The notes under the pieces were generated by a model. That model saw only the letters and a program-made list of their open reading frames with translations. It was not told where the DNA came from and did no database searches. Of a stretch of DNA of 64,000 nt, positions 4,302 to 43,690 are shown in pieces; the stretch's first letter is position 1, and each line of letters opens with the position of its first letter. Made by a program: the position numbers and the translations under genes. The DNA is from Nocardia sp. NBC_00565. Lineage in GTDB: Bacteria; Actinomycetota; Actinomycetes; Mycobacteriales; Mycobacteriaceae. The stretch spans positions 9,362,001 to 9,426,000 of the forward strand of contig NZ_CP107785.1 of assembly GCF_036345915.1 (NCBI RefSeq), written 5' to 3'.

Positions 4302-4424
4302 TGTACCGCCGCACGGTGTTTGCGGTAGACCCGAAAATTGTGTGGACTCACCATTTTGGTCAGTGGCCCTAGATTGGTCACCGAGCACACCGCCCCGGAC
4401 GACGATTGCACCGAAAGAAGCGCC

Positions 4425-6460: not shown

Positions 6461-6477
6461 ACAGGTGGTTCCCGGTC

Positions 6478-7380
6478 TTACTGGGAGGTGGCGCGTGATT
6501 CGCGCAAGCGCGCGGCGTCCTGGCCCGGCGGTGCGCCGAAGAGGCGACGGTACTCGCGGCTGAACTGCGACGGGCTGTCGTAGCCGACCAGGTAGCCGGT
6601 GGTCGCTACGTCATGAGCCTCGCTGAGCAGTAGCTGACGGGCCTCGTGCAGGCGGATCTGCTTCTGGAACTGGACAGGTGTCATCGCGGTGACCGCGCGG
6701 AAGTGCCGGTGGAAGGAGGCAGTGCTCATCCCGGCAATTCGGGCCAGATCCTCGATATGCAGTGTTTCGGTGTGGTGCTCCCGTATCCACTGGATTGCCC
6801 GCCTGACGTGGGTCAATCTACTGTCGGCCAGCCCGAGTTGGCGGACCGTCGCGCCCTGTTCGCCGGTGATCAGCCGCCAAAGGATCTCCTTCTTGACGAT
6901 GGGTGCCAGGACCGGCAGATCGGTTCTGTGGTCGAGCAATCGCAACAACCGGACGGCGGAGTCGAGTAGTTCGCTGGAGACGTCACTTACCGCCAGCCCG
7001 GGCCGGGGCCCGGCCGCCAGGTCGCGGCGGTTCTGGGTGTCGGATCCGGCCTCCAGCAGCAGGGCGGCGATCTCCTCCGGCTCGAACGTCAGCCCGAAAC
7101 CTACGAAGGGTTCCGACAGACTTGCCTGCACGTAGTGACCGATGACCGGGAGATCGATCGAGGCAACCAGGTACTGACCGGCGCAGTATTCGTAAGTCCG
7201 ATCGCCGAACACCACGCGGATGACCCCCTCGGCGACGATCATCAGGACGGGTCCGGGGATCGGCGCTATCGGCTCGTCGCGCGATGACAAGAGCAAGCCA
7301 TCGATCGCGAGGTCGGCGCATCCCGCATGGGAAACGATCAACTTACGCAGTTCGTCGAGAGACACCATCCAGGAAATCAT
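6478..7380 (-). CDS. AraC-family transcriptional regulator
   Basis: About 300 residues: an N-terminal cupin-like effector domain (PVLMIVAEGVIRVVFGDR, residues ~30-150) and a C-terminal double helix-turn-helix (IEDLARIAGMSTASFHRHF and GYLVGYDSPSQFSREYRRLFG). I prefer ATG 7380, with a second ATG at 7368; upstream extension is not conserved-looking. It is transcribed divergently from the large catabolic operon beginning at 7522, so it most likely controls that operon, with the operon's substrate or a pathway intermediate as effector. That is inference from position. Confidence 0.88.
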   Translation of the reverse strand: MISWMVSLDELRKLIVSHAGCADLAIDGLLLSSRDEPIAPIPGPVLMIVAEGVIRVVFGDRTYEYCAGQYLVASIDLPVIGHYVQASLSEPFVGFGLTFEPEEIAALLLEAGSDTQNRRDLAAGPRPGLAVSDVSSELLDSAVRLLRLLDHRTDLPVLAPIVKKEILWRLITGEQGATVRQLGLADSRLTHVRRAIQWIREHHTETLHIEDLARIAGMSTASFHRHFRAVTAMTPVQFQKQIRLHEARQLLLSEAHDVATTGYLVGYDSPSQFSREYRRLFGAPPGQDAARLRESRATSQ

Positions 7381-7521: not shown

Positions 7522-8370
7522 ATGCCGCTCGATTCCTATGCCGGACCTCAATTGGCGGGAAAGATCGCCATTGTCACCGGCGGTGCGTCCGGAATCGGTC
7601 AAGCCATTGTCGAGAGGTTCGTCGCCGAGGGCGCCGTGGTCGCCATCGCCGACCGCGACAGTGACCGCGGCGAGGCGTTGGCCGCGAGCTGCGGCGCCGA
7701 CACCGTCTTCATGAAGACCGACGTCGCCGATCCCGAACAGGTCGGCCGGCTCGTCGTCACCACGCTGGAAACGTTCGGTGGCCTGGACATCATGGTCAAC
7801 AACGCCGGCATCTCCGGAACTATGCATGCCAGCTTCCTGGACGACGATTTGGGCGACTTCCACCGAGTGTTGTCAGTGAACCTACTGGGTGTCATGGCGG
7901 GTACGCGGGATGCGGCACGACACATGTCAACCAATGGCGGCGGTTCCATCATCAACCTGTCCTCGATCGGCGGAATCCAAGCCGGTGGTGGGGTGATGAC
8001 GTATCGGGGCTCGAAGGCGGCGGTCATCCATTTCACCAAGTCGGCCGCGGCTGATCTGGCGGCCTATGACATTCGGGTCAATTGCATCGCACCCGGCAAT
8101 ATCCCGACATCCTTGCTCACCTCGTCCACGGCGAATATGACCGCGGAAGATAGCGAACGTTTCGTCAATGCGGTGCGTGAGCATATGCGAAACAGTAAGC
8201 CGCTGAAACGCGACGGAACCCCCGAGGATGTCGCGGAGGCCGCGGTGTATTTCGGCTGCGATCGGTCCGCGTATGTGACGGGAACGATCTTGCCGATCGA
8301 CGGCGGAACCGTCGCGGGCATACCCACGAAACGCCCTGAGGTCACCGCGGGTGCCACGCCGAGCCCGTAA
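7522..8370 (+). CDS. SDR-family NAD(P)-dependent oxidoreductase
   Basis: A classical short-chain dehydrogenase of about 282 residues. It shows the cofactor motif TGGASGIG, NNAG, the catalytic Ser in INLSSIGG and YRGSK (YxxxK), and the C-terminal YVTGTILPIDGG. ADRDSD after the second strand points to NAD(H). ATG 7522 is preferred over the upstream in-frame ATG because GAGGGTG precedes it. It is first in an operon with ferredoxin, P450, amidohydrolase, M24 proteins, crotonase and CoA-transferase, so it probably oxidises the hydroxyl created by the P450 (inference). Confidence 0.88.
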   Translation: MPLDSYAGPQLAGKIAIVTGGASGIGQAIVERFVAEGAVVAIADRDSDRGEALAASCGADTVFMKTDVADPEQVGRLVVTTLETFGGLDIMVNNAGISGTMHASFLDDDLGDFHRVLSVNLLGVMAGTRDAARHMSTNGGGSIINLSSIGGIQAGGGVMTYRGSKAAVIHFTKSAAADLAAYDIRVNCIAPGNIPTSLLTSSTANMTAEDSERFVNAVREHMRNSKPLKRDGTPEDVAEAAVYFGCDRSAYVTGTILPIDGGTVAGIPTKRPEVTAGATPSP

Positions 8371-8429
8371 CGAAGCATCGCGGGCCGTTGGCTCGCACCC
8401 ATCACGTCGCGGTCGAGAAAGGAGCGTCG

Positions 8430-8624
8430 ATGAAAGTGACTGTCGAACAAGGTAAGTGCGTCGGCTCCGGTCAGTGTGTGCTGCATGCAGGCGACGTATT
8501 CGATCAACGCGACAACGACGGGGTTGTCGTATTACTCAACGAGAATCCGCCGGCCGAGCAGGCCGAGAGCGTTCGCGAGGCCGCTACCTTCTGCCCCGCG
8601 ATGGCGATCCAGATCGAGGAATGA
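8430..8624 (+). CDS. Ferredoxin, [3Fe-4S] type, P450 electron donor
   Basis: A 64-residue acidic ferredoxin starting MKVTVEQGKC. The cluster ligands are C10 and C16 in CVGSGQC and a distal Cys in FCPAMA. The middle cysteine of a [4Fe-4S] motif is absent, as in the [3Fe-4S] ferredoxins that reduce bacterial P450s. AGGAG stands seven bases before ATG 8430. It lies 9 bases upstream of the P450 gene and almost certainly donates electrons to it. No ferredoxin reductase gene is present in the operon. Confidence 0.9.
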   Translation: MKVTVEQGKCVGSGQCVLHAGDVFDQRDNDGVVVLLNENPPAEQAESVREAATFCPAMAIQIEE

Positions 8625-8633
8625 CGGAGACCA

Positions 8634-9878
8634 ATGTCTGAAACGCTGAGCGATACCGTTGCCGACACGGCTGCCGACGTACCCGAGTACCCGATGACCA
8701 GGTCGGCGAGCTGCCCGTTCGCGCCGCCGCCGCGCGTTCTCGACCTCGCCGCGGCGAAACCGCTTACCAGAGTGCGTATTTGGGATGGCAGTACACCGTG
8801 GTTGATCACCGGGTACGCCGCGGCGCGGGCACTTTTCTACGATTCCCGAGTCAGTGTCGATGACCGGCGCGACGGATTTCCGCACTGGAACGCCGGCATG
8901 AAGGCAATGGTGCACACGCGTCCACCGTCGGTCTTCACCAGGGATGCCGAGGAACACGCCCGATACCGGCGGATGTTGACCAAGCCGTTCACCTTCAAGC
9001 GGATGGAAGCGCTGCGGCCCGCGATTCAGCAGCTCACCGACGAGCATATCGACGCTATGCTCGCCGGACCCCAGCCTGCCGATATCGTCACGGCACTGGC
9101 GCTGCCCGTACCGTCGCTGGTCATCAGCGAGCTACTCGGCGTGCCCTATGACGATCACGAATTCTTTCAGCAGCAGACGACCATCGGACTCGCCAAGAAC
9201 GCGACCGCCGAGGAATCCGGAAAGGGCATCCTCAGCCTGCTGCAGTACTTGGGCGGGCTGGTCGACGCCAAAATCGAGTACCCCGCCGAGGACGCGGTGT
9301 CCGATCTGGCGGAACGGGTCAAGGCCGGGGAGCTTGATCGGGCCGAGGCCGCGATGATGGGTATCGGCCTCCTGTTCGCGGGACACGAGACCACCGCCAA
9401 CATGATCGGTCTCGGCACCCTCGTTCTTTTGGAGAACCCCGAACAGCTGGCGGTGATCCGTGACACCGAGGACCCGAAGGTCCTCGCCAACGCGATCGAG
9501 GAGTTGCTGAGGTACCTCAGCATCATCCAGAACGGACAGCGGCGCGTCGCCATCGAGGACATCGAGGTCGGTGACCAGGTGATCCGCGCAGGCGAGGGCA
9601 TCATCATCGATCTGGCCCCGGCGAACTGGGATCCGAACACCTTTCCGGAACCGGAGCGGCTCGACATCGACCGCGCGAATGCCAACCAGCACGTGGCATT
9701 CGGCTACGGCCGGCATCAATGCGTCGGCCAGCAACTCGGCCGCGCGGAACTGCAGATCGTCTTCCGCACGCTGTTCCGTCGCATCCCCACGCTGCGCCTG
9801 GCAACCCCGATCGATCAGATCGAATTCAAACATGACCGACTGGCCTATGGCGTCTATGCACTGCCGGTCGCATGGTGA
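8634..9878 (+). CDS. Cytochrome P450 (class I bacterial)
   Basis: A 414-residue soluble P450 with all core motifs: the I-helix oxygen-activation site LLFAGHETTANM, ExxR in EELLRYL, and heme loop FGYGRHQCVG followed by QQLGRAE. Overall pattern is closest to CYP105-like actinomycete monooxygenases. It is preceded by its likely ferredoxin and followed by hydrolytic and β-oxidation-type enzymes. Probable role: hydroxylation that starts breakdown of the operon's unknown substrate. Confidence 0.92.
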   Translation: MSETLSDTVADTAADVPEYPMTRSASCPFAPPPRVLDLAAAKPLTRVRIWDGSTPWLITGYAAARALFYDSRVSVDDRRDGFPHWNAGMKAMVHTRPPSVFTRDAEEHARYRRMLTKPFTFKRMEALRPAIQQLTDEHIDAMLAGPQPADIVTALALPVPSLVISELLGVPYDDHEFFQQQTTIGLAKNATAEESGKGILSLLQYLGGLVDAKIEYPAEDAVSDLAERVKAGELDRAEAAMMGIGLLFAGHETTANMIGLGTLVLLENPEQLAVIRDTEDPKVLANAIEELLRYLSIIQNGQRRVAIEDIEVGDQVIRAGEGIIIDLAPANWDPNTFPEPERLDIDRANANQHVAFGYGRHQCVGQQLGRAELQIVFRTLFRRIPTLRLATPIDQIEFKHDRLAYGVYALPVAW

Positions 9879-9914
9879 TCCATTCCGAGAAGATATAAGG
9901 AAGTAAAGAGGCCA

Positions 9915-11090
9915 ATGATGTCCAGCCCGATGAGCAGTATCTCGCTTTATCCGCCTGAGGGGTTCGGTGCGCCCAAAGACCGGCAGGGTCATGCCACAGA
10001 GGACGTCGGTCTTCCGCCGGGGACAGTGGTGTTCTCGGCCGACAATCACATCTCTCTCGCGGACGATATCTTTTATCAGCAGCTGCCCGATGATTTGAAG
10101 GAGCAGGCGCCGCGTATCTGGTACGAAGACGGCGCCTATCAAGTCGGGCACAGCGGACAGTCGTTCTTGCCCCCGGAGTTCAGTGCCGTATTGATGCAGT
10201 ACGACGACTTGGTCGGCGCGGGCAGCGGAAACCTCGAAGCCCGGATCGAAGAGTTGGCCGGCGACGGCGTCCGGCAGGAGCTGGCGTTCCCGAACGCCGT
10301 CCTGGCGCTGTTCCATCATCCCGACAAGGAGATGCGTGAGCGCTTGTTCCGGATCTACAACCAGTACATCGCGGGCTTGCAGGAGCGTTCCAAGGGACGC
10401 TTCTACGGTGTGGGCCTGATCAATTGGTGGGATCCGGCCGGTGCTCGGCGGACGTTGGCGGAGCTGAAGTCGCTGGGGCTCAAGACATTTCTGATGCCGC
10501 TGAACCCGGGCACGGATCTCGAGGGCCAGCCGATCGACTACGCGAGCAAGGCGATGGATCCGGTGTGGGACGAGATCGAGGCGGCGGGCGTGCCGCTGAC
10601 CCACCACATCGGGGAAACTCCGCTGAAGAGCCCGTGCGAATTCAACGGCATCGTGGTCGGCATGATGGTCAATGTCGACTCGTTCCGGGAAGTGTTCGGT
10701 AAGTACATCTTCGCCGGAATTCTCGACCGGCACCCGAAACTGCGTATCGGCTGGTTCGAGGGCGGGATTGCCTGGGTTCCGTCGGCACTGCAGGACGCCG
10801 AGCATCTGCACGCGTCGTATCGGCACATGTTCAATCACGAATTGCAGCATGACATTCGGTACTACTGGGACACCCACATGAGCGCGTCGTTCATGGTCGA
10901 TCCGCTCGGCTTGCGGCTGATCGATCAGATCGGTGTGGACAAGGTGATGTGGTCCTCGGACTACCCGCACAACGAAAGCACATTCGGCTATTCGGAGAAG
11001 TCACTGGCGGCGGTCGTCGACGCGGTGGGTCCGGAGGATGCAGTCAAGATCGTCAGCGGCAATATCAAGAAATTCCTGGGCATCGAATGA
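9915..11090 (+). CDS. Amidohydrolase-2 family metal-dependent hydrolase
   Basis: 391 residues of the amidohydrolase-2 (ACMSD/LigI-like) TIM-barrel superfamily. SADNHIS takes the place of the usual DxHxH metal site, THHIGETP supplies further histidines, WFEGGIAWV is typical of this subgroup, and WSSDYPHNES holds the terminal metal-binding Asp. The first metal site has only one histidine, as in many P450-operon paralogues of this family. Members catalyse hydrolysis or non-oxidative decarboxylation. The stop overlaps the next ATG by 4 bases (ATGA). Confidence 0.8.
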   Translation: MMSSPMSSISLYPPEGFGAPKDRQGHATEDVGLPPGTVVFSADNHISLADDIFYQQLPDDLKEQAPRIWYEDGAYQVGHSGQSFLPPEFSAVLMQYDDLVGAGSGNLEARIEELAGDGVRQELAFPNAVLALFHHPDKEMRERLFRIYNQYIAGLQERSKGRFYGVGLINWWDPAGARRTLAELKSLGLKTFLMPLNPGTDLEGQPIDYASKAMDPVWDEIEAAGVPLTHHIGETPLKSPCEFNGIVVGMMVNVDSFREVFGKYIFAGILDRHPKLRIGWFEGGIAWVPSALQDAEHLHASYRHMFNHELQHDIRYYWDTHMSASFMVDPLGLRLIDQIGVDKVMWSSDYPHNESTFGYSEKSLAAVVDAVGPEDAVKIVSGNIKKFLGIE

Positions 11091-12322
11091 CGAATTCTCT
11101 GACACCGGAAAAGACTTCGATCCACATTCCGGAGCGGCCGGACCGTGCCCGGATGCGGCGTGAAACCGGGGCACGGTTGCGGGCGGCGATGGCCGAACAA
11201 GGCGTCGGTGCGCTGGTGCTGCTCGAGGATCAGTCAGTGATGTATGCGACCGGGGCGAGCTGGCCGCTCCCCGACGCCGGTTTGACGCATGTGGAGTCTC
11301 CGGTCGCGGTCGTTGTGCCCGACGATGAATGGCCGCACCTGTTCCTGCCCTTCCGCGCGGGCGCGGCCACTGATTCCGAGCTGCCCGCCGACCATGTCCA
11401 TGGGCCGGTCTATCTCGAATTCGACGAGGGCGTCGAGATTTTCGCGAAAATCCTGGCCGATCTGATCCCCAGCGGCGCCACCGTGGCGGTCGACCAGCTG
11501 ACCGGAGCGATGCGCCGGGCGCACCCGAAGTTGTTCCCGTCCGGGCCACCCAGCGACGCCGCGTTGGTCCTGAGCGCGGCCAAGATCGTCAAGACACAGG
11601 ACGAGCTCGCGTGCATTCGCACGGCGGTCCGGATCACCGACACCGCGATGGTCGATGTCCAGGCGGCGCTGGCGCCCGGGATCCGCCAGATCGACCTGTC
11701 GGCGGCCTTTGTGCGCCGCGCGTTCGAGTTGGGCGCCACCGCCAATATCCTCGACCCGATCTGGCAGGTCATGCCGAACAGCAAAGCCGAGGGCGTCTGG
11801 ACTACGCACAATGATCTGGCGCTGCCGCTGTTGACGACCGAGCGCGAGCTGACGGCGGGTGACGTGCTGTGGACCGATGTCAGTATCACCTACGGCGGCT
11901 ACTGCTCCGATTTCGGCCGCACGTGGGTGGTGGGCCAGGACCCGTCCCCTCGACAGCAGGCGCAATTCGCCAAGTGGCGCGAGATCATGGACGCCGTTCT
12001 CGCGGTGACCCGCGCCGGCGCCACGGCGGCCGAGCTGGGCGCGGCGGCCACCGTCGCCAACGATGGCAAGAAGCCCTGGCTGCCCCACTTCTACCTGGGC
12101 CACGGCATCGGCGTGGGTCCCGCCGAGATGCCCATGATCGGCACCGACCTGGGGGAGGACTTCGACAAGAATCTCGTCCTCGCCCCCGGCACGGTGCTCG
12201 TACTGGAGCCGGTGGTGTGGGAAGACGGCACCGGCGGCTACCGGGCCGAAGAGATCATCGTGATCACCGAGGAAGGCTTCATTCCGTTGACCGACTACCC
12301 CTACGCTCCCTATGGCAACTGA
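11087..12322 (+). CDS. M24-family metallopeptidase / creatinase-like hydrolase
   Basis: About 411 residues: an N-terminal creatinase-type domain (~1-170) and a C-terminal pita-bread domain. All five expected metal ligands can be placed: the two Asp in WTDVSITYGGYCSDFGRT, His in GHGIGVG, Glu in VLEPVVWED and Glu in YRAEEI. It could cleave an X-Pro peptide or act like creatinase on a C-N bond; the latter suits a catabolic operon. It starts at ATG 11087 inside the end of the amidohydrolase gene and overlaps the next M24 gene by 11 bases. Confidence 0.85.
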   Translation: MTNSLTPEKTSIHIPERPDRARMRRETGARLRAAMAEQGVGALVLLEDQSVMYATGASWPLPDAGLTHVESPVAVVVPDDEWPHLFLPFRAGAATDSELPADHVHGPVYLEFDEGVEIFAKILADLIPSGATVAVDQLTGAMRRAHPKLFPSGPPSDAALVLSAAKIVKTQDELACIRTAVRITDTAMVDVQAALAPGIRQIDLSAAFVRRAFELGATANILDPIWQVMPNSKAEGVWTTHNDLALPLLTTERELTAGDVLWTDVSITYGGYCSDFGRTWVVGQDPSPRQQAQFAKWREIMDAVLAVTRAGATAAELGAAATVANDGKKPWLPHFYLGHGIGVGPAEMPMIGTDLGEDFDKNLVLAPGTVLVLEPVVWEDGTGGYRAEEIIVITEEGFIPLTDYPYAPYGN

Positions 12323-13484
12323 GATCCTGGCCGATGAACGCGCTCTCCGCTCAGGGCGGCGGGAGCGGGTGCTGGCCCAGATGCAAGCCCACGACCTCGA
12401 CATCCTCGTACTCGGACGACAGGCCAATATCCGCTATGTCAGCGGTGCGCCGCAACTGTGGACGGCGGGTACCAGGCCGTTCGGTCCGGGGTGCGTGGTG
12501 GTCCGCGAATCCGGTGACATCCACCTGCTGAGCGTTTGGGACGAAGGCGTCCCCGACGACATTCCGCACGATCACCTGTACGGCATCATGTGGAACCCGC
12601 TCAATATCATCGCGGTGCTGCAGAAGATCGACGGCGCGGCAACCGCCCGCAGGGTGGGCACCGACGCGCTGTCCCCGCTGTTCGGCCAATTCCTTCCGAT
12701 GGCGTTTCCCCAGGCGGAAGTGGTCGACGGGGAACCGGCCATACGCGCTGCCCGTCGTATCAAGACACCCGACGAGATCGTGGTGCTTCGGGATTCGATC
12801 CGCATCGCGGAGGCCGGCCTGGCGGCGGCCGTCGCCGAGTTGCGGCCCGGGATCTCGGAGAAGAACCTCACCGGAGTCATGTTGCAAGCCATGGCAGCCG
12901 GTGGTGTCAGCACACCAGCCACCCAGGATGCCGCGTGGGTGACCTCGCCTGAGCACCCGTGGCGGCGGGTGGGCGATGCGGGACGCGCACAGCCCGGTGA
13001 TCGGATACAGGCCGGTGATCTGGTGGCCTTCTCTTCAGGGGTCATCGCCAATGGCTATATCGCCGAGGTCGGCCGGACCTGGCCGGTCGGCGCGCCGAGT
13101 AACGGCACCGATGCCCTCTACCAGCGATGGGACCGGCTGTGGTCACACCTGCTGACCGCCTGTAGGCCCGGTCAATCCGCCGCTGGGTTCCTCACTGCCT
13201 ACGAGGACGCGGGCGAATCGCTGCCGCCGATGCCTGTGGTCCATGCGCTGGGTCTGGGGTTCGACGCGCCAGTGGTGTCGTCGCAGCTCCCCGCCACAGC
13301 CGCCGAGGAGCAACTGGAACCCGGGATGGTGCTCGCCGTCACCGGCTACGTCTGGGAGCAGGGCATCGGCGCCGTCTTCGGGCGAGAAATGGTGTTGATC
13401 ACCGCCGACGGACCCGAGGTGCTGACCTCCGCCCCGGCGTGGAGCAGCAACTCGGACACAGTGATCGGCGCATCGAATGGCTGA
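12312..13484 (+). CDS. Degenerate M24-like protein (probable non-catalytic paralogue)
   Basis: About 390 residues with the same two-domain creatinase architecture as the preceding protein, but the metal site is eroded. The region matching the first Asp reads LVAFSSG, the second Asp is Glu in YIAEVGRTW, the histidine remains in VHALGLG, the first Glu is Thr in MVLAVTGYVW, and the last Glu persists in FGREMVL. Loss of at least two ligands argues against a normal dinuclear centre. Overlapping genes suggest it is made together with the intact paralogue, perhaps as a heterodimer partner (inference). Confidence 0.8.
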   Translation: MATEILADERALRSGRRERVLAQMQAHDLDILVLGRQANIRYVSGAPQLWTAGTRPFGPGCVVVRESGDIHLLSVWDEGVPDDIPHDHLYGIMWNPLNIIAVLQKIDGAATARRVGTDALSPLFGQFLPMAFPQAEVVDGEPAIRAARRIKTPDEIVVLRDSIRIAEAGLAAAVAELRPGISEKNLTGVMLQAMAAGGVSTPATQDAAWVTSPEHPWRRVGDAGRAQPGDRIQAGDLVAFSSGVIANGYIAEVGRTWPVGAPSNGTDALYQRWDRLWSHLLTACRPGQSAAGFLTAYEDAGESLPPMPVVHALGLGFDAPVVSSQLPATAAEEQLEPGMVLAVTGYVWEQGIGAVFGREMVLITADGPEVLTSAPAWSSNSDTVIGASNG

Positions 13485-33704: not shown

Positions 33705-34030
33705 AGGGTGTGTCTTGGGAAGAGACCAAGCGTCGAGCTCGTGAAATCGACCCGACATGGGATTCCCCTGAGCGCGTCGCAGCGCGAGATGAGAGCCGTG
33801 AGCAGATGCGCGCGGAGCAGCGCGGGCACCAGCTCGCCGAACTGCGCAAGCAGTGCGGGGCGACGCAGGCCCAGGTCGCTGAGCTGATGGGGGTTTCTCA
33901 GGCCAGGGTGTCGCAGGTCGAACACGGCAAGATCACGTCCATGGATCTGGTTCGTGACTACATCGTCGCGCTCGGAGGAACCCTGGATGTTGTTGCTCAC
34001 GTTGGTGATTGGAGCGTCAAAGTCGCCTAG
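33701..34030 (+). CDS. higA: HigA-type XRE antitoxin
   Basis: 109 residues. The N-terminal half (WEETKRRAREIDPTWDSPERV) is charged and probably wraps the toxin. The C-terminal half is an XRE helix-turn-helix: LRKQCGATQAQVAELMGVSQ and RVSQVEHGKITSMDLVRDYI. It should neutralise HigB and repress the operon. Its TAG stop (34028-34030) is part of the CTAG target duplicated by the IS that begins at 34031, so the protein is not truncated by the insertion, but nothing downstream remains co-transcribed without reading through the IS. Confidence 0.88.
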   Translation: MKGVSWEETKRRAREIDPTWDSPERVAARDESREQMRAEQRGHQLAELRKQCGATQAQVAELMGVSQARVSQVEHGKITSMDLVRDYIVALGGTLDVVAHVGDWSVKVA

Positions 34031-34053
34031 CACGACAGTTGTATTTCGTTGTG
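34031..34053 (+). repeat. Left terminal inverted repeat of the IS701-type element
   Basis: Begins CACGACAGTTGTATTTCG; identical over 23 bases to the reverse complement of 35391-35413. It directly abuts the CTAG target site. Confidence 0.92.
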
Positions 34054-34089
34054 CTGCAAGCGAGTTGGTTCTGGGGTAGTTTGGCGCGG

Positions 34090-35283
34090 GTGCTGGATGA
34101 TGTTGTGGCCGAGGATGTTTCGGCTTGGCGAGTGGGTTTCGATGAGGTGTTCGCGCGGGTAGCGGGGGTGTTCTATCGGACTGAGCCGCGGCGGTGGGCG
34201 CGGGCGTATCTGACGGGGTTGTTGGCGCCGGTGGAGCGCAAGAACTCCTGGCAGTTGGCCGATGCCGCCGGCGTGGTGGAGCCGGACGGTTTGCAGCATT
34301 TCCTGAACAGGTCCAGGTGGAGTGCTGATGATCTGCGTGATCATGTGCGCTCGTATGTGGCCGAGTCATTGGCCTGCCCGGACGGTGTCCTGGTGCCGGA
34401 TGAGACCGGGTTCGTCAAGAAGGGCACGAAGTCGGCCGGGGTTCAACGCCAGTATTCCGGCACCGCGGGCAGGGTGGAGAACAGTCAGTTGGGGGTGTTT
34501 TTGGCCTACTCCGGCCGCGCTGGGCGTGCATTGATCGACCGGGAGCTGTATATACCCGAATCATGGATCAGCGACCGAGACCGCTGTAGCGAAGCGGGAA
34601 TACCCGAAAAGCGTTGCAGTGAAGGTGTTTTGACCAAGCCGCGACTGGCCGAGGCCATGATCGAGCGGACACTGAGGGCCGGGGTGGTCGCGGGGTGGGT
34701 GGCCGCTGACTCCGCCTACGGCCGTGACGGGAAGTTCCGGGCATTCCTGGAGGCTCGTCGGATGTCCTATGTCCTCGAGGTGCCGGTCAAACAGACCGTC
34801 ACCGATATCGACGGGCGTCGTCGGGTCGACACTCTCATCGGCCGTGCTCCCGCCGAGGCATGGCACCGGGTTTCGTGCGGACCTGGGGTTCGAGGCGAGC
34901 GCGTCTACGACTTCGCGTGGGCCACCCTGCCCGGCTTCGGTGACCTCCCGGCCGGGTTCGTGCGCACCCTACTCGCCCGCCGATCGGTCGAGGACCCCGC
35001 CGATATTGCCTACTACCTGTGCTTTCACCCCGACACCGTGACTCGTGAGCAGATCGTCGCCGTCGCTGGAGCCCGGTGGGCGATCGAGGAATGCTTCCAA
35101 GCCGCCAAAGACCAATGCGGCCTCGACCACTACCAGGTACGCCGATGGGACCCCTGGTACCGCCACATCACCCTGGCCATGCTCGCCCACGCCTTCCTCG
35201 CAGTCACCGCCGCCACCGACCCAAAAGCCCACGCGGGCTGGGCCCGATCACAGTCGCCGAAATCCGCCGTCTCCTGGCGATAG
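34090..35283 (+). CDS. IS701-family transposase (DDE)
   Basis: About 397 residues from GTG 34090; an earlier in-frame GTG at 34051 lies at the very end of the left repeat. Family features: AYLTGLLAPVERKNSWQLADAAG near the N-terminus, LVPDETGFVKKGTKSAGVQRQYSG with the first catalytic Asp, WVAADSAYGRDGKFRAFLE with the second, and ARWAIEECFQAAKDQCGLDHYQVRRWDPWYRH with the catalytic Glu. All three acidic residues are present, so activity is expected. Confidence 0.9.
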   Translation: MLDDVVAEDVSAWRVGFDEVFARVAGVFYRTEPRRWARAYLTGLLAPVERKNSWQLADAAGVVEPDGLQHFLNRSRWSADDLRDHVRSYVAESLACPDGVLVPDETGFVKKGTKSAGVQRQYSGTAGRVENSQLGVFLAYSGRAGRALIDRELYIPESWISDRDRCSEAGIPEKRCSEGVLTKPRLAEAMIERTLRAGVVAGWVAADSAYGRDGKFRAFLEARRMSYVLEVPVKQTVTDIDGRRRVDTLIGRAPAEAWHRVSCGPGVRGERVYDFAWATLPGFGDLPAGFVRTLLARRSVEDPADIAYYLCFHPDTVTREQIVAVAGARWAIEECFQAAKDQCGLDHYQVRRWDPWYRHITLAMLAHAFLAVTAATDPKAHAGWARSQSPKSAVSWR

Positions 35284-36349: not shown

Positions 36350-37318
36350 CTAGCAGACTGCTGTGGTGCCGGCTGTTTCGCGTCGCTTGGCTTCGCGGGC
36401 GAGCATGCGGTCGCGTTGTTCTTCGAATTTGAGTACGTCTTGGGCGAGTCTGTCGAGGAACAGGGCGAGTCGTTCGCGGACGGCTTCGCCGCGTGGGGTG
36501 AAGTCGGTGCGGTCGAAGATGTTCCATTTCTTGAGGACGGGTTGGATGACTTCTTCGAGGTGTTGGCGCAGGTCGTAGATGCCGTGTTTGGCCATGAGTA
36601 CGCCGTTGCGGCGGAAGTTGGGCATGCCGGCGCCGGGCATCTGGAAGTTTTCCAGGATGAGGGTGATGGCTTCGATGGCCTGGTCGGGGGACAGGTCCAG
36701 GGCGGCGCTGCACATGTTGCGGTAGAAGATCATGTGCAGGTTTTCATCGGCGGCGACGCGTTGGAGCATGCGGTCGGCGGTGGGGTCGTCGCAGACGCGG
36801 CCGGTGTTGCGGTGGCTGACGCGGGTGGCGAGTTCTTGGAAGGTGACGTAGGCGACCGAGTGCAGGAATCCGGCGTCGGCCTCGGTCGGGGAGGCGAAGC
36901 CGTTGGTCATGTGGATCATGCGTGCTTGTTCGAGGGCGACCGGGTCCACGCTGCGGGTGACTACGAGGTAGTCGCGCATGACGATGCCGTGGCGGTTTTC
37001 CTCGGCGGTCCAGCGGCCGACCCAGGTGCCCCAGGCGCCGTCCTGGGAGAAGTTTTCGGCGATCTCGCGGTGGTAGGAGGGCAGGTTGTCTTCGGTGAGC
37101 AGGTTGGTGATCATGGCCGCTTTGGCGACTTCGTTGAGTCGGGACTGCTGCGGGTCCCAGTCCACGCCGCCGAGCGCGGCGAAGTTGCGGCCTTGGTCCC
37201 ACGGGACGTAGTCGTGGGGATGCCATTCCTTTGCCAGGGAGAGGTGCCGGTTGACGTTTCCTTCGGCAACCGGCTCCAACTCCGTGAGCAGCTCGAGCTG
37301 AGTCAGATCCCTTGCCAT
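36350..37318 (-). CDS. Acyl-[acyl-carrier-protein] desaturase (DesA/FabF2-like, ferritin fold)
   Basis: 322 residues with the di-iron motifs of soluble acyl-ACP desaturases: TAEENRHGIVMRDYL (EExxH) and VAADENLHMIFYRNM (DExxH). The N-terminal QLELLTELEPVAEGNVNRHL and mid-protein YVPWDQGRNFAALGG match mycobacterial DesA1/DesA2 proteins, which introduce a double bond into ACP-bound fatty acids using ferredoxin electrons and O2. It is divergent from the radical SAM cluster, with 195 bp between the starts. Whether it contributes a lipid to that pathway is unknown. Confidence 0.9.
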   Translation of the reverse strand: MARDLTQLELLTELEPVAEGNVNRHLSLAKEWHPHDYVPWDQGRNFAALGGVDWDPQQSRLNEVAKAAMITNLLTEDNLPSYHREIAENFSQDGAWGTWVGRWTAEENRHGIVMRDYLVVTRSVDPVALEQARMIHMTNGFASPTEADAGFLHSVAYVTFQELATRVSHRNTGRVCDDPTADRMLQRVAADENLHMIFYRNMCSAALDLSPDQAIEAITLILENFQMPGAGMPNFRRNGVLMAKHGIYDLRQHLEEVIQPVLKKWNIFDRTDFTPRGEAVRERLALFLDRLAQDVLKFEEQRDRMLAREAKRRETAGTTAVC

Positions 37319-37513: not shown

Positions 37514-38608
37514 ATGGCCGACGTTCAGGAGGCGGACCCGTACCGCAAATTCCGGGTCGAGAACTTCCCGCAGACCGACCTGGCCGGATACCTCCCCACC
37601 GACGGTGTCGAAGTGAAATTCCTCGACGGATGCAATCGGTCGTGCATCTTCTGTGTGAACGAAGACCATATCGGGAAACGGTTGAATCCGTTGGACACCG
37701 GCCGTTTCACACAATCGCTGTTCGACTGGATCGATTCCCCCACCGAGCCGGAGAAACCGGAGGTGGTCTACGGGACCGGCGGTGAGCCGCTCATGGCGCT
37801 CGACCTCGTCGAGGACGTCTTTCGCCCGCTGGGCGAACGCGGCTTGACCACCAGGCTGGTCACCAACGGCACCCTGCTGGACGAGAAGCGGATCGCCCGA
37901 CTGGTCGATATGAAACTGTCCGGGGTCAAGGTCACCTACAACACTGCCGACGCCGCACGGCTCGCCGCATTGATGAAGGGGTCGAAATCCGGTGACGCGG
38001 AACTGATCCTGCGCAACATCCGGCTGGCCAAGGCGGCCGGTCTGTGGGTCTTCGTGCGAATCGGATTGGGCAAGCACAACATCGACGAAGTGCCGACGAT
38101 CTATCGCATCATGCGCGAGATCGGCGTCGATGTCGTACAGATCAAGCCGTGGATCCCATCCGGGCTGGCGGCGGTCAACCAGACCGAGCTCAGCCTGCGC
38201 CCCGCCCCGCTGTTCGATCGATTCACCGCAATCATGGAAGAGCTGTACGACGAGATCACCCAGCCGGGCGGCCCCGAGGTCACCGTCTCCTGCTATCCAC
38301 CCGCCCGGAATCTGGGATTCACGGTCAAGGACTGCGCCAATATCGCCAAGATCTACTGTGAGCCGTGCGGCCACGCGCTGGTCTGCAATTTCTCGGACGA
38401 ATACCTCGGCAGCTGGTTCCCAGAGGATGGCGGTCTACTTGCCTGCGTCCAACGACGGCGGGAGCTGTATCCGGAGATCATGGACTCCCACGGGGTCGCG
38501 TCGTGCCCGGCCCGGCTGAACTGGTCGTCCCCGAGCCGGGTTATCAGCCCCGCGCCCGAGTGGAAACCGGCACGTCTACTGCCGCTCGATATCGTCGGCG
38601 TCGATTGA
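37514..38608 (+). CDS. Radical SAM enzyme with C-terminal cysteine cluster
   Basis: 364 residues. The canonical [4Fe-4S]-SAM motif CxxxCxxC is CNRSCIFC at about residues 39-46. GTGGEPLMALDLVE is the SAM-binding GGE segment. VTNGTLLDEKRIARLVDMK and VQIKPWIPSG follow the MoaA/SPASM-like barrel. The last third holds at least six cysteines (VSCYPP, KDCANIAKIYCEPCGHALVC, LLACVQ, ASCPARL), enough for one auxiliary Fe-S cluster. ATG 37514 has AGGAG upstream. First gene of a six-gene coupled cluster; its stop overlaps the TTG of the first ATP-grasp gene. Substrate unknown; no precursor peptide gene was found nearby. Confidence 0.88.
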   Translation: MADVQEADPYRKFRVENFPQTDLAGYLPTDGVEVKFLDGCNRSCIFCVNEDHIGKRLNPLDTGRFTQSLFDWIDSPTEPEKPEVVYGTGGEPLMALDLVEDVFRPLGERGLTTRLVTNGTLLDEKRIARLVDMKLSGVKVTYNTADAARLAALMKGSKSGDAELILRNIRLAKAAGLWVFVRIGLGKHNIDEVPTIYRIMREIGVDVVQIKPWIPSGLAAVNQTELSLRPAPLFDRFTAIMEELYDEITQPGGPEVTVSCYPPARNLGFTVKDCANIAKIYCEPCGHALVCNFSDEYLGSWFPEDGGLLACVQRRRELYPEIMDSHGVASCPARLNWSSPSRVISPAPEWKPARLLPLDIVGVD

Positions 38609-39867
38609 ACGCATTCGCCGAACCGGCTGTGCCGCACCGGTTTTTGCTGTTGTCGCGCAAGCCGCTCACCGAACGTCCGATACACGAGTGGCTCGCGGAG
38701 GTCGTGGCCAGCACGGTGCTGGTCACCACATCGGCGGCGGTGGCCGGCATCGGCGACGATATCCGAGACCGGTTCCTCGATTACCGGATCGTGCCGGACT
38801 ATCAGTCGTGGTCCACGGAGTGGACGGCCGAACGCGCGGCGCGTGCGCACCGCGTCGATCGCATTGTCAGTTCGAGTGAAGACGATGTGCTGCGCTGTGC
38901 CCGGCTGCGCGGTCGGCTCGGGCTGCCGGGGCAGACGGTGGAATCCGCGTGCGCCTATCGCGACAAGCTCGCGATGAAGCAGGCCGCGGCGCGCGCCGGC
39001 GTGAACGTGCCACGGCTGCGGGCGATCGACCGGCCCACCGACCTGATCGAGTTCGTTGCCGAGACGGGACTCCCGGCAGTCGTCAAGCCGCGGCGCGGTT
39101 CGGCATCCATCGGGGTGCGCCTGCTGCGCACCGAGGCAGCTGTCACGGCATATTTGGCGTCGGGCGAATTGCCTGCGGCGCCACAGCGTTCGGGTCGCTG
39201 GATCGCCGAGGAATACATCGACGGCCCGTTCTTCCACGTGGATGGGATCATGTCCGGCGCAAAGGTGTTGCATTGCTGGCCCAGCCAGTACAACAGCGGC
39301 AATGCCGAAGCGGCACAAGCGGAGTCGGAGCTGTCGAGCGTCCTGCTCGCCCCCGAGGACCCGCGAACGGAGGTGCTGCGGCGCTTCGCCGCCGATGTCG
39401 TGCAGGCGCTGCCCTCCCCGCCCTTCCCGACGAGCTTTCACCTGGAGGCGTGGCTACCCGAGCCCGATAGGGCGGTGCTGTGCGAAGTCGCCGCCAGGAC
39501 CGGCGGCGGCCCGATCGCCCGCACATATCAGGACGCGTTCGGTGTGCATCTGTCCCGCGAGAGCATGCGCGGCCAGTGCGGCCTCGACCTTGCCCTGACG
39601 CGACAACCAGCGGCACCGCGACGCGCCGGCGGCTGGATTCTCTTTCCACCCGGCCGGGGCCGATTCGCACCACCTTCCGGCCCGTGCCCGGTCTCCGGCA
39701 CGGAGCTGGAATTGCATATGGCCCCAGGCATTTTCGCCGATGGGCCCGAGTACGCCGCACACTCGGTGGCGGCGGTTACCATCCATGCGGATACCGCCGA
39801 GCAGGTACGGCAGCGTATCCGGGACGCGACCCTATGGTGGGCGCAGACGTGCCGGTGGCTGGCTTGA
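38605..39867 (+). CDS. ATP-grasp ligase 1 of the radical SAM cluster
   Basis: About 420 residues. N-terminal pre-ATP-grasp domain (RFLLLSRKPLTERPIHEWL; RIVSSSEDDVLRCARLRGRLGLPG), then the grasp fold: LPAVVKPRRGSASIGVRLL as the phosphate loop, RWIAEEYIDGPFFHVDGIM, and SFHLEAWLP..AVLCEVAARTGGGPI providing Mg-binding Glu residues. This pattern is that of carboxylate-amine ligases (PurK/L-amino-acid-ligase type) which join an acyl phosphate to an amine. TTG 38605 overlaps the previous stop as TTGA; GTG 38629 is an alternative. Paralogue of the next gene. Confidence 0.85.
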   Translation: MNAFAEPAVPHRFLLLSRKPLTERPIHEWLAEVVASTVLVTTSAAVAGIGDDIRDRFLDYRIVPDYQSWSTEWTAERAARAHRVDRIVSSSEDDVLRCARLRGRLGLPGQTVESACAYRDKLAMKQAAARAGVNVPRLRAIDRPTDLIEFVAETGLPAVVKPRRGSASIGVRLLRTEAAVTAYLASGELPAAPQRSGRWIAEEYIDGPFFHVDGIMSGAKVLHCWPSQYNSGNAEAAQAESELSSVLLAPEDPRTEVLRRFAADVVQALPSPPFPTSFHLEAWLPEPDRAVLCEVAARTGGGPIARTYQDAFGVHLSRESMRGQCGLDLALTRQPAAPRRAGGWILFPPGRGRFAPPSGPCPVSGTELELHMAPGIFADGPEYAAHSVAAVTIHADTAEQVRQRIRDATLWWAQTCRWLA

Positions 39868-41147
39868 GCGGGAACCGGCACGGTGGCAGCAGGGTGGCGG
39901 TGCTGTCGAAGAAGCCGCTGCGCACTCACCGCTATGACCGCTGGCTCTCCGAATTCGGTGCGGAGGCGGTGCTTTTCGCCGAAGATGCGCCCGAAAGCCG
40001 CGCCTTCGCCGGGACACACCACGGGTATCCCGATGCGCCCAGATTCTTTCCCGACTGGAAGCGAAACCGGGCCGTCGACGCCGCGGTGATCGCGGAGTAC
40101 GCCGTTCGCTCCTTCGACCGGATCGTGGCGCTGAGCGAATGCGATCTGGTTCGGGCCGCCGAGCTGCGTGAGCACTTGGGCCTTCCCGGTCAGAGCCTGG
40201 CTTCGGCGACCGCCTTCCGGAACAAGTTCATCATGAAATCGCTTGCGGCCCAGGCAGGTCTGCTAGTTCCGGAGCACCGGCTCGTCGAATCGATAGCCGA
40301 TCTGACGGATTTCGCCGACGCGCACCCCGGCGCGGTGGTGGTCAAGCCACTGGACGGGTCGGGCGCGGTGGACGTCACTGTGCTCGGCGACCGGGCCGCG
40401 ATCGAGTCCTGGGCACACGCCCGCGCGGTAACGGGCGACGATCCGGCCGACTATCTCGTCGAGGAATGGGTGCAGGCCCCCATGCTCTCACTGGACGGTT
40501 TGATGCGTGCCGGGCAAGTCCAGGCCGTGATGGTCGGCGCCTACACCCGAACCTGTCTGCGGTCACTGATCGACTTGCGCCCGCACGGCATCCTGTTGCT
40601 CGACCACGACGACCCGCGAGTGGCCTCGGCCCGCGCATACCTCGCCCGGTTGCTGCGTGCGCTGCCGACCGCCGAGGAGACGATGAGCTTCCACTGTGAA
40701 CTCTTCGATCACCCCGCGCACGGCCCGATGCTCTGCGAGATCGCCTGCCGCACCGGGGGCGGGAACCTGAACCCGATCGCCCGCGGCGCACTCGGCATCG
40801 ACTTGGAGCAGGCTGCCTGCCTCGGCCAAGCGGGCTTCCCCGTCCCGATCCCGCAGCCGGCGCCGGGCCGTTGCTACGGCGACATCGTGGTTCCTCGCTC
40901 GCCCCGGCGGCTCGCCCCCGGCCTGGTCTGCGATCTCCCCGGCGTACTGCATTTCGCGGCACACGACGACCAGACCGGCGACCGGCCACAGCGTGCCGCC
41001 AAGGTGTCAGACTATGTGGTCGACGCGCTGCTGGCGGGCGACGATCACGCCGGAGTGCGCCGCGTCTACGACTCCGTCGTCGCGTGGCTGGATCAGCACC
41101 TGCCACCCGAATCCCCGAAGGGAGGTGCCGACTCACGGTGGATCTAG
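39864..41147 (+). CDS. ATP-grasp ligase 2 of the radical SAM cluster
   Basis: About 427 residues, same architecture as ligase 1 but only distantly similar: VAVLSKKPLRTHRYDRWL, IVALSECDLVRAAELREHLGLPGQ, GAVVVKPLDGSGAVDVTVL as phosphate loop, YLVEEWVQAPMLSLDGLM, and FHCELFDHPAHGPMLCEIACRTGGGNLNP with the metal-binding acidic residues. A second TTGA start-stop overlap links it to ligase 1; GTG 39894 is an alternative start. Two different ligases imply two successive amide-type bond formations or two substrates (inference). Confidence 0.85.
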   Translation: MSGNRHGGSRVAVLSKKPLRTHRYDRWLSEFGAEAVLFAEDAPESRAFAGTHHGYPDAPRFFPDWKRNRAVDAAVIAEYAVRSFDRIVALSECDLVRAAELREHLGLPGQSLASATAFRNKFIMKSLAAQAGLLVPEHRLVESIADLTDFADAHPGAVVVKPLDGSGAVDVTVLGDRAAIESWAHARAVTGDDPADYLVEEWVQAPMLSLDGLMRAGQVQAVMVGAYTRTCLRSLIDLRPHGILLLDHDDPRVASARAYLARLLRALPTAEETMSFHCELFDHPAHGPMLCEIACRTGGGNLNPIARGALGIDLEQAACLGQAGFPVPIPQPAPGRCYGDIVVPRSPRRLAPGLVCDLPGVLHFAAHDDQTGDRPQRAAKVSDYVVDALLAGDDHAGVRRVYDSVVAWLDQHLPPESPKGGADSRWI

Positions 41148-41926
41148 GACTGGCTGGCCGCGCCTACTACGTGACCGGCGGTAGCCGCGGCATCGGACGA
41201 GCGATCGTCGCGCTGCTGCTCACCGAGGGCGCTTCGGTCGCCACCTGTGCTCGGCACGCCGCCGCATTGCGCGAGATGACCGCTACCGTGCCATCGGAGC
41301 ACGGCACCCGACTGCTGACCCACGTCGCCGACGTTCGGGATGCGGCGGCTCTCGACCGGGCCGTCGGCGCCGCGGCGGACCGGTTCGGACGACTCGACGG
41401 CGTAGTGGCCAATGCGGGCGCCGGTGTGTCCGGCGGCGTGCTGACCACGCCGGATCCGGAGTGGGACAACCAGTTTCGGGTGAAGGTGGGATCGGTACTG
41501 AACCTGGTCACGCCCGCACTCCCGGCGCTACGCCGCTCTGATGCCGGGCGGGTTGTGGTGGTCAACGGCGTCACCGCGCACCAGCCGGAGGCGAGTATGG
41601 CCGCCGTCAGCGCGGCGCGTGCGGCCGTCGCCAACCTGGCCCGGTCGCTCGCCGTCGAGCTGGCGCCGTCCGGCGTGCTCGTCAACACGATCAGCCTCGG
41701 TGCGATCGCGACCGAGCGCCAGCGTGCCCGATACGCCGCCGCCGATTCCGGCGAGTCCTTCGCCGACTGGTCCGCGGCCGAGGCGAACCGCCGCGGCGTG
41801 CTGCTGGGCCGTTTCGGATCACCACAGGAGGTGGCTCCCATTGCGGCGCTGTTGCTTTCGCCGCTGTGCTCCTACGTGACCGGCAGTTCCATCGACGTGT
41901 CCGGAGGTTCGGGTGGCCGCACCTGA
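41138..41926 (+). CDS. SDR-fold protein lacking the catalytic Tyr/Lys
   Basis: 262 residues with an intact cofactor site (YYVTGGSRGIGRAIV, VANAGAG) and a normal C-terminus (SPQEVAPIAALLLSPLCSYVTGSSIDVSGG). The catalytic segment, normally Ser..YxxxK, reads VVVNGVTAHQP and MAAVSAARAAVANL: Ser is Gly or shifted, Tyr is Val and Lys is Arg. It should bind NAD(P) but not act as a usual alcohol dehydrogenase; it may be a non-redox enzyme or a scaffold. GTG 41138 is the only suitable start. Coding overlaps both neighbours. Confidence 0.85.
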   Translation: MDLGLAGRAYYVTGGSRGIGRAIVALLLTEGASVATCARHAAALREMTATVPSEHGTRLLTHVADVRDAAALDRAVGAAADRFGRLDGVVANAGAGVSGGVLTTPDPEWDNQFRVKVGSVLNLVTPALPALRRSDAGRVVVVNGVTAHQPEASMAAVSAARAAVANLARSLAVELAPSGVLVNTISLGAIATERQRARYAAADSGESFADWSAAEANRRGVLLGRFGSPQEVAPIAALLLSPLCSYVTGSSIDVSGGSGGRT

Positions 41927-42491
41927 CTGGGAGATCGTCATCGTGCGCCACGGTGCCACCGAATGGTCACGCACGGCACGATTCACCGGTCACATCGATA
42001 TCCCGCTCTCGGCGCGCGGGCGTGGCCAGGCGACCGAACTCGGCCTGGCATTGCGGGTGCGACCGCCGGAGATCATCCTCAGCAGTGACCTGCGCCGGGC
42101 CCGGCAGACCGCCGAGACCATCGCCCGCGTCGTCGGGATCGACCCGAAGCAGGTGCGGATCAGCACTGGTCTGCGGGAGGAGTTCCTCGGCTGCTGGCAG
42201 GGACGCACCCGGGCCGAGGTCGCCCGCACCAGCCCGGACGGCTATGCCCGCTGGCGAACCGGCGATATCGGCGCGTTCGACGGGCGAGAAGGACTGATCG
42301 CGGTGGCGCGGCGGGCCGTTCCCGTATTGCTCGCCCACGTCGCGGAGCGGCCCAGGTCCACCGGTCGACTGGTGGTGGTCACCCACGCCAATACGGCACT
42401 GGCACTGGCGGGTTCGCTCACCGAGATACCGCCCGGACGGTGGACGAGCCTGCCGTGTCCGGCCCCGGCGCAGGCCATGGTGCTGTGCTGA
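41913..42491 (+). CDS. Histidine phosphatase (phosphoglycerate-mutase-like)
   Basis: 192 residues, the single-domain histidine phosphatase fold. The phospho-acceptor is in IVIVRHGATEW, with Arg and further pocket residues in SSDLRRARQTAETIA, the general-acid Glu in REEFLGCWQG, and the second His in VVVTHANTALALA. All catalytic residues are present. GGAGG sits six bases before GTG 41913. In a biosynthetic cluster such an enzyme commonly removes a phosphate from a late intermediate; here that is inference from context. Confidence 0.88.
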   Translation: MAAPDWEIVIVRHGATEWSRTARFTGHIDIPLSARGRGQATELGLALRVRPPEIILSSDLRRARQTAETIARVVGIDPKQVRISTGLREEFLGCWQGRTRAEVARTSPDGYARWRTGDIGAFDGREGLIAVARRAVPVLLAHVAERPRSTGRLVVVTHANTALALAGSLTEIPPGRWTSLPCPAPAQAMVLC

Positions 42492-43690
42492 ACAGTCCCG
42501 AAACCCGGTGGCTCGCGTGCGCGATCCTGATCACGGCGATGGGCAACGGGCTCTATCTCGCCGGAGCTGTCCTGTTCCTGACTCGTTCGGTCGGGTTGAC
42601 CGCGACGGAGGTGGGGGCCGGACTGACCATCGCGGGCCTGCTCGGGCTCGGCGCGGGGCCCGTAGCGGGACACCTCGCCGACCGTATCGGCGCGCGCGAG
42701 GTGTACCTGATCACGCTGACCGCCGAAGGTCTGGCCACCGGTGCTCTCGCCCTAGTCCACGGTTTCACCGCATTCGTCGTGATCGCGGTGGCGGTCGGGA
42801 TCGCCGAGCAGGGCAGCAGGGCCGCGCGCGGCGCGCTGATCGCCCGAGTCGGCGGTCGGCGCCGAGCTCATCTTCGCGGATACTTGCGGTCGGTGACCAA
42901 TATCGGGGTTGCGGTGGGCGTCGGCGGTGCGGGACTGGCCATCCTGCACGACACCCATGCGGCGTATCTGATCCTGATACTCGCCGATGCGGCCAGCTTC
43001 CTGCTCACCGCGCTGCTCATCGCGCGCATTCCCCGGCAGCCACCGCTCCCGAAACCCGCCGACGACAACGCCGGCCGGTTGGATCTGCCCTACCTCGGGG
43101 TTACCGCGGTGTACGGCGTGTTGTCGCTGCACTATGCGGTGCTCACCGTGGTTCTTCCACTCTGGATCGTTACGCACACCTCCGCGCCCGCCTGGCTGGT
43201 TTCGCCCCTATTGCTGACCAACACCCTGCTGGTCGTCTTTCTGCAGGTCCGCGCGGGCCGACGCGTCGACTCGATAGCCGACGGCGCCGCGATCACTCGC
43301 CGCGCCGCCATTCTGCTCGCGTCCGGCTGCCTGCTGTTCACCATGACCGCCGCAGCGCCACCACTGCTCGCCGGTCTGCTCCTGACACTTACCGTCGTCG
43401 TGTACACGATGGGCGAAATCGGCCAAGCCGCCGGTGAATTCGAGTTGAGCTTCGCGCTGGCGCCCGATCACGCGCAAGGTCGCTATCAGGGGATCTTCGG
43501 CATGGGCACCGGGATCTGCGTCGCCGCGGCACCGGCGCTACTCAGCCTGCTCTGCATCGACTGGGGCCGCGTCGGCTGGATCCTGTTCGGCGCGATCCTG
43601 CTGGCGGCAGGGCTTGCCGTCGAGCCGATGGCACGCTGGGCGCAGTCGCCCGCTCGATCACCGGCCCCACCCGGTCCGAATGTTCGGTAG
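42485..43690 (+). CDS. MFS transporter, probable exporter of the cluster product
   Basis: About 401 residues with 12 predicted helices: LITAMGNGLYLAGAVLFLTRSVGL in TM1, AGHLADRIGAREVYL as motif A, and VGIAEQGSRAARGALIARVGGRRR. It resembles drug-efflux MFS proteins of biosynthetic clusters more than nutrient importers. GTG 42485 overlaps the phosphatase stop; an earlier GTG at 42440 is possible. It ends the six-gene unit, since the next gene is 368 bp away. Confidence 0.85.
   Translation: MLNSPETRWLACAILITAMGNGLYLAGAVLFLTRSVGLTATEVGAGLTIAGLLGLGAGPVAGHLADRIGAREVYLITLTAEGLATGALALVHGFTAFVVIAVAVGIAEQGSRAARGALIARVGGRRRAHLRGYLRSVTNIGVAVGVGGAGLAILHDTHAAYLILILADAASFLLTALLIARIPRQPPLPKPADDNAGRLDLPYLGVTAVYGVLSLHYAVLTVVLPLWIVTHTSAPAWLVSPLLLTNTLLVVFLQVRAGRRVDSIADGAAITRRAAILLASGCLLFTMTAAAPPLLAGLLLTLTVVVYTMGEIGQAAGEFELSFALAPDHAQGRYQGIFGMGTGICVAAAPALLSLLCIDWGRVGWILFGAILLAAGLAVEPMARWAQSPARSPAPPGPNVR

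Follow-up and report, generated by a model that had tools for sequence, protein, structure and literature searches.

The window considered here is a stretch of 64,000 nucleotides from the genome of Nocardia sp. NBC_00565 (9.71 Mb in one contig). Positions 37514-43690 of its forward strand carry an operon of six genes, among them those for a radical S-adenosylmethionine (SAM) enzyme and two ATP-grasp ligases. An earlier note on this DNA had described a compact unit of a radical SAM enzyme, two ATP-grasp enzymes, a histidine phosphatase and a transporter. All six open reading frames (ORFs) that it placed here are present, and Pfam, sequence, fold and motif comparisons agree with this composition. 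Five products are those named in the title of that note; the sixth gene, encoding a protein of the short-chain dehydrogenase/reductase (SDR) fold, was missing from it.

Organization of the operon

The first gene (37514..38608) encodes the radical SAM enzyme, rSAM, of 364 amino acids (aa), with a CxxxCxxC motif formed by C40, C44 and C47 and with C260, C274, C291 and C331 in its C-terminal part. It is followed by the two ligase genes, ATPg1 (38605..39867, about 420 aa), whose product matches the L-amino acid ligase RizA (4wd3) and contains the motif LCEVAARTGGG, and ATPg2 (39864..41147, about 427 aa). The SDR-fold protein (41138..41926), of the PRK07062-like type, has the TGxxxGxG motif and carries V157-S-A-x-R161 where the catalytic YxxxK would be expected. 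The fifth gene (41913..42491) encodes a histidine phosphatase, HisP, of branch 1 (PF00300), with RHG at residue 12 and TH-x-NT at 157, and the last one (42485..43690) a transporter of the major facilitator superfamily (MFS; PF07690, E value 2.2e-26), probably an exporter.

The overlap of neighbouring genes at all five junctions, claimed in the earlier note, is borne out on the DNA. The stop codon of rSAM (38606-38608) overlaps the TTG start of ATPg1 at 38605, and that of ATPg1 (39865-39867) overlaps the TTG start of ATPg2 at 39864. The remaining three genes have GTG starts, each falling within the preceding gene: that of the SDR gene at 41138 within ATPg2 (stop at 41147), that of HisP at 41913 within the SDR gene (stop at 41926) and that of the MFS gene at 42485 within HisP (stop at 42491). 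G+C content is 0.69-0.71 over positions 39000-43000 of the window, compared with 0.61-0.67 in the flanking stretches.

Conservation and distribution

The rSAM gene was found in seven of 150 genomes of the genus Nocardia, the window genome counted (loci L003 and L004 belong to genomes already represented by L020 and L023 and add nothing to the count). Six of these seven, namely the window, L020, L021, L022, L005 and L006, contain all six genes in identical order; at the seventh locus, L023, the contig stops inside ATPg1. Proteins of the five other complete Nocardia loci are 71-90% identical to those of the window, with the transporter at 72-75% in all five. The complete set recurs outside Nocardia. 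In Cryptosporangium (L019) the identities amount to 71, 44, 44, 59, 48 and 43% in the order from rSAM to MFS, and an additional PhyH-family gene lies between phosphatase and transporter. An actinobacterial metagenome-assembled genome (MAG), L007, has all six genes as well, its MFS gene being cut by the contig end and giving a weak match (34% over the cut gene). Not all orthologous loci have such overlaps: in L020, L021, L022, L006 and L007, the SDR start codon nearest to the ATPg2 stop follows it by 7 bases, and in L021 and L005 the MFS start codon nearest to the HisP stop follows it by 14 bases.

In the four Nocardia pairs computed, the ratio of nonsynonymous to synonymous substitution rates (dN/dS) ranged from 0.05 to 0.37 for the six genes, rSAM being strongly conserved at 0.05-0.12. 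Judged by these ratios, the six genes are under purifying selection. Since the same gene order recurs in other genomes and dN/dS stays within this range, the operon is no chance arrangement.

The operon is real, conserved, rare and patchily distributed. In the order sample, rSAM was found in two of 397 genomes, one of them the window genome, and in the class and phylum samples (1/394 and 1/396) only in the window's own genome. Family samples gave none in 250 genomes (family of G015), none in 17 (family of G087) and one in five (family of G012, the centre genome itself); these searches score just the best candidates of each genome, and an empty result in them is weak. Viral contigs contained only matches of 26-27%, and plasmids none. 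Further rSAM homologues occur in Lysinibacillus, Streptomyces NPDC053048 and Lentzea (protein records only), and rSAM has a single match in its own genome at E <= 0.001.

The expectation of the earlier note that the genes are kept together holds for most loci and fails at two. An Aestuariivirgaceae MAG (L008) has rSAM (68% identity) followed by one ligase, and the SDR, phosphatase and MFS queries found no match on its 16-kb contig. In Streptomyces natalensis (L009; rSAM 60%) the other five genes are not nearby: none was matched on the 7-kb contig, a 56.8-kb contig being also listed for the protein.

The radical SAM enzyme

Membership of rSAM in the radical SAM superfamily is clear (PF04055, E value 2.3e-19; 70.6 bits versus a cut-off of 29.5). 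In an alignment of 47 of 54 sequences, restricted to those of 330-430 aa, C40, C44 and C47 are present in 47 of 47 members, and C260, C274, C291 and C331 are near-invariant. These four C-terminal cysteines could serve an auxiliary cluster; the SPASM Pfam domain was not matched in rSAM. The family comprises about 50 proteins and reaches none of the listed NCBIfam cut-offs. The protein search, which finds just those relatives having short exact words in common, returned one tight group and nothing more down to about 30% identity.

Among solved proteins, the nearest relative in a single-sequence search is BlsE (E value 1.2e-11, the next protein reaching 9.8e-5), but a search with the family profile ranks MoaA above BlsE. 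Top matches of the predicted fold include BlsE, viperin, DesII and MoaA; SkfB is tied with them, and SuiB, 5why (a sactipeptide enzyme) and anSME appear also. A viperin-type defence function was considered and rejected: despite a weak match to PADLOC viperin models (E value 4.6e-10) and a resemblance in fold, a neighbourhood of ligases and a transporter is at odds with it.

The ATP-grasp ligases

Both ATP-grasp proteins score below the Pfam gathering thresholds, and their sequences match L-amino acid ligases. For ATPg1, a phmmer search found RizA with an E value of 2.3e-17; the predicted fold of ATPg2 is closest to L-amino acid ligases within the ATP-grasp enzymes. The LAL_C2 Pfam domain was matched in neither ligase, the ATPg2 model being poor past residue 335 and known members being unchecked for this domain. 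Both proteins are of the L-amino-acid-ligase type and have conserved motifs; they are predicted to form amide bonds.

A tree was built of 39 ligases, 25 of them hand-picked from protein listings of 100 and 40 entries; the ligase of L039, whose guessed frame contained stops, was excluded. ATPg1 falls into a clade of 16 entries (support 99/97) that includes Streptomyces-type ligases and the ligase of L034. ATPg2 falls into a group of 14 (93/84), together with the single ligase found in L008 and with others apparently located on other rSAM contigs. When 33 of 56 rSAM entries were compared with 35 of 40 ATPg2 entries, nine of the 33 rSAM proteins apparently shared a contig with an ATPg2 match, as judged by contigs of equal length. 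The corresponding comparison of 53 of the 56 rSAM entries with 100 entries of the ATPg1 search gave 17 of 53, the latter listing including some ATPg2-type proteins. In Lentzea tibetensis, the locus tags of ATPg1 and ATPg2 are adjacent (FKR81_28285 and FKR81_28280).

ATPg1 relatives of about 50% identity are present in many Streptomyces records among the matches listed. In a Streptomyces-type cluster (L034/L037), such a relative is surrounded by a second ligase and by citrate synthase and luciferase-like genes, as recognized by Pfam, and no match to rSAM exists in the 20 kb of L034. Taken together, the ligase tree, the apparent sharing of contigs and the occurrence of ATPg1 kin in an unrelated cluster suggest that rSAM and ATPg2 form the core of the system, ATPg1 being a shared accessory.

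Several other clusters containing ATP-grasp genes were encountered. By eye, the L034/L037 cluster also holds aconitase-like and 2-hydroxyacid dehydrogenase-like genes. Two Streptomyces plasmids (L041 and L042, about 7600-13240) contain two ATP-grasp genes together with genes for a 'NikS protein', serine acetyltransferase, cysteine synthase and tyrosine 2,3-aminomutase. The actinobacterial locus L038 (4162-11717) has three ATP-grasp genes and, by eye, an MFS-like gene; it also encodes a cystathionine beta-lyase-like pyridoxal phosphate enzyme and a multi-cysteine protein, radical-SAM-like by eye and matching no NCBIfam model. On the Priestia megaterium plasmid pBM700 (L044, 8778-16882), two tandem overlapping ATP-grasp genes lie near aminotransferase and AAC(3) genes; an extra gene for 1-deoxyxylulose-5-phosphate reductoisomerase is present there, perhaps as a self-resistance copy belonging to a pathway for a small peptide.

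The SDR-fold protein and the phosphatase

The SDR-fold protein matches PF13561 with an E value of 9e-44. In six of six aligned loci TGxxxGxG is present, YxxxK is absent and VSAxR stands in its place, and the protein does not qualify as a classical SDR. Because this catalytic motif is lacking, it cannot be taken to carry out a simple redox reaction between alcohol and ketone. HisP (E value 1.4e-41 to PF00300) has both RHG and TH-x-NT intact in six of six loci, in agreement with branch 1 of the family. Its nearest solved relative is a glucosyl-3-phosphoglycerate phosphatase (4pz9, E value 1.7e-22).

Flanking regions and search for a precursor peptide

Some flanking genes are common to L020, L022 and L023, and likewise to L005, L021 and L006. 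Immediate neighbours of the operon in the window have no match beside the operon at the other loci; farther out, P450-like ORFs (function read by eye) show 29-52% identity between the window and L006. Upstream, a gene at 34009-35283 reads by eye as a transposase of the insertion sequence type, and a divergent gene for a fatty acid desaturase (36350-37318, PF03405) abuts the operon. Since the latter is unmatched at the seven other loci examined, the operon probably lies in a variable region. For the same reason, the idea that the desaturase is a self-resistance copy of a target was dropped. At the L008 locus, a gene for a 778-aa protein (4224-6560) directly precedes the rSAM and ligase genes. 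This protein matches nothing in Pfam, NCBIfam or PADLOC, and by eye it looks like a CHAT-type protease with a zinc ribbon.

Short ORFs of 18-120 aa were compared within 1.5 kb of the operon at eight loci (upstream only in L007). In accordance with the earlier note, which had found no precursor of a ribosomally synthesized and post-translationally modified peptide (RiPP), none of the window's short ORFs had a match at the seven other loci within this distance, the rest of the genome being outside the search. L020 and L022, whose flanks are alike, share many short ORFs; otherwise there are scattered weak matches. A stretch of 20-22 aa located shortly after the MFS gene is common to L005 and L021. 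It is shared on both strands, which points to conservation of DNA rather than of protein.

Discussion

From the observed gene content, conservation and fold types we infer the substrates, the product, the order of the steps, the two ligations and the masking phosphate of the following scheme. With a probability of roughly 0.55, we propose that the six genes form an operon dedicated to making and exporting a small peptide-like metabolite of non-ribosomal origin. In this scheme, rSAM would start from a small primary metabolite, probably one that bears a phosphate, and turn it into an unusual building block, either a carboxylate or an amino acid. ATPg2, the ligase travelling with rSAM, would activate this building block as an acyl phosphate or accept it in that form, and ATPg1 would add a common amino acid. 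The SDR-fold protein might contribute a step of an unusual kind, be it redox chemistry, isomerisation or scaffolding. HisP would take off the phosphate late, thereby unmasking the product, and the MFS transporter would export a di- or tripeptide-like compound, plausibly an antimetabolite or a signal.

Several observations weigh against this proposal. The loci L008 and L009 make clear that the six-gene set is not obligatory. In the fold scores of ATPg2, other ATP-grasp families follow closely behind the L-amino acid ligases, and the support of the ATPg2 group is under the level that the tree program itself marks as firm. A relative of ATPg1 at E <= 1e-60 occurs in just one of 246 sampled genomes of the genus of G559 (taken as Streptomyces), so its other context comes down to one locus read. 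Many radical SAM families are tied in the fold comparison, enzymes of nucleotides and sugars (BlsE, viperin, MoaA) standing level with RiPP maturases (SkfB, SuiB), and the class of building block is therefore not singled out. The SDR-fold protein is without an assigned role. Finally, neither a kinase nor an aminotransferase is found among the six genes, so that a phosphorylated or aminated precursor would have to come from elsewhere.

The main rival explanation has a peptidyl nucleoside or an aminoacylated sugar acid as the product, with rSAM acting on a nucleotide or sugar phosphate, HisP dephosphorylating the sugar and the ligases adding amino acids, according to the logic of nikkomycin and polyoxin. 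Viperin acts on CTP (cytidine triphosphate), and viperin, together with BlsE, DesII and MoaA, is among the best fold matches of rSAM; BlsE is moreover its nearest solved relative in a single-sequence search, and that of HisP is a glucosyl-3-phosphoglycerate phosphatase. Proteins of plasmid-borne Streptomyces loci annotated as 'NikS protein' match both ligases with 30-32% identity over 94-97% of length, but the two such loci read lie in a different cluster (with tyrosine aminomutase and cysteine-synthase genes) and not in a nikkomycin one. The preference for BlsE is lost in the family-profile ranking and in the tie with SkfB, and Pfam and NCBIfam detect no glycosyl, enolpyruvyl or base-modifying domain in the six proteins. 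We regard this explanation as rather unlikely.

Synthesis of a cofactor, or repair or detoxification of a primary metabolite, would agree with the strong conservation of rSAM. Such functions are hard to reconcile with the very patchy distribution, down to single occurrences in the class sample, and with a set to which an MFS transporter belongs, and we consider them improbable. It is highly improbable that the product is RiPP-like, with rSAM as a peptide maturase and the ATP-grasp proteins as graspetide or peptide-extending ligases: maturases and related enzymes do appear among the fold matches and L005 and L021 do share the stretch mentioned above, but within 1.5 kb no short ORF of the window matches another locus, the operon has no intergenic room, the SPASM domain is unmatched and the ligases match those of free amino acids.

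Returning to the small peptide-like metabolite, a tentative and somewhat doubtful extension is that a new rSAM reaction produces a building block new to nature. The enzyme and its matched ATPg2 would then be a portable warhead module, combined across genomes with extra ligases, a phosphatase, an SDR-fold protein or a dioxygenase for making small antimetabolite peptides, and the operon described here would be the first of its class. Clusters devoid of signatures of nonribosomal peptide synthetases (NRPS), polyketide synthases (PKS) or RiPPs are easily overlooked by genome mining. Having just six genes, the operon can be cloned and tested whole, and an uncharacterised rSAM family paired with a specific ligase could reveal a new radical reaction and a small peptide that is likewise new.

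Comparison with known systems

The earlier note could not match this gene set to a described pathway, and the same outcome was obtained in the open full-text literature: no description of the set was recognised in open papers of PubMed Central (PMC), subscription papers and cluster databases being outside the search. The nikkomycin and polyoxin pathways bring together an ATP-grasp ligase, a radical SAM enzyme and a phosphatase, and their clusters include an enolpyruvyl transferase and nucleoside tailoring genes. In contrast, neither an enolpyruvyl transferase nor any other nucleoside gene occurs among the six, which sets the operon apart from them.

Resemblance to single characterized enzymes is low. 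Structural alignments with the ligases RizA, BL00235 and BacD (4wd3, 3vot and 3vmm) show just 16-18% identity. BlsE, a cytosylglucuronate decarboxylase acting on cytosylglucuronic acid (PMC3715490; structure 7vob), is 19% identical to rSAM, which scores 41.8 bits with the BlsE model TIGR04466 against a cut-off of 400.

A partial precedent for the association of a radical SAM enzyme with an L-amino acid ligase and a transporter is the Pbo cluster of Pseudomonas syringae pv. phaseolicola. A radical SAM gene there adjoins genes for an L-amino acid ligase-like protein, a 2-oxoglutarate dioxygenase and MFS proteins (PMC8473136). Unlike in our operon, that radical SAM enzyme was modelled on lysine-2,3-aminomutase, the ligase is single and NRPS/PKS-type genes are present (PMC8473136).

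In phosphonoalamide biosynthesis (PnaA-D), tripeptides are built by a pair of different ATP-grasp ligases, of which one forms dipeptides and the other joins a special amino acid; PnaD and the aminotransferase PnaA supply the latter, phosphonoalanine (PMC11867202). The Nocardia operon differs in possessing rSAM, the SDR-fold protein and the phosphatase, and neither a phosphonate-forming enzyme nor an aminotransferase is found among its six proteins, so it is not of the phosphonoalamide type. In being a small cluster built with two ATP-grasp ligases it is nevertheless alike, and the phosphonoalamide clusters offer the nearest worked-out logic for it.

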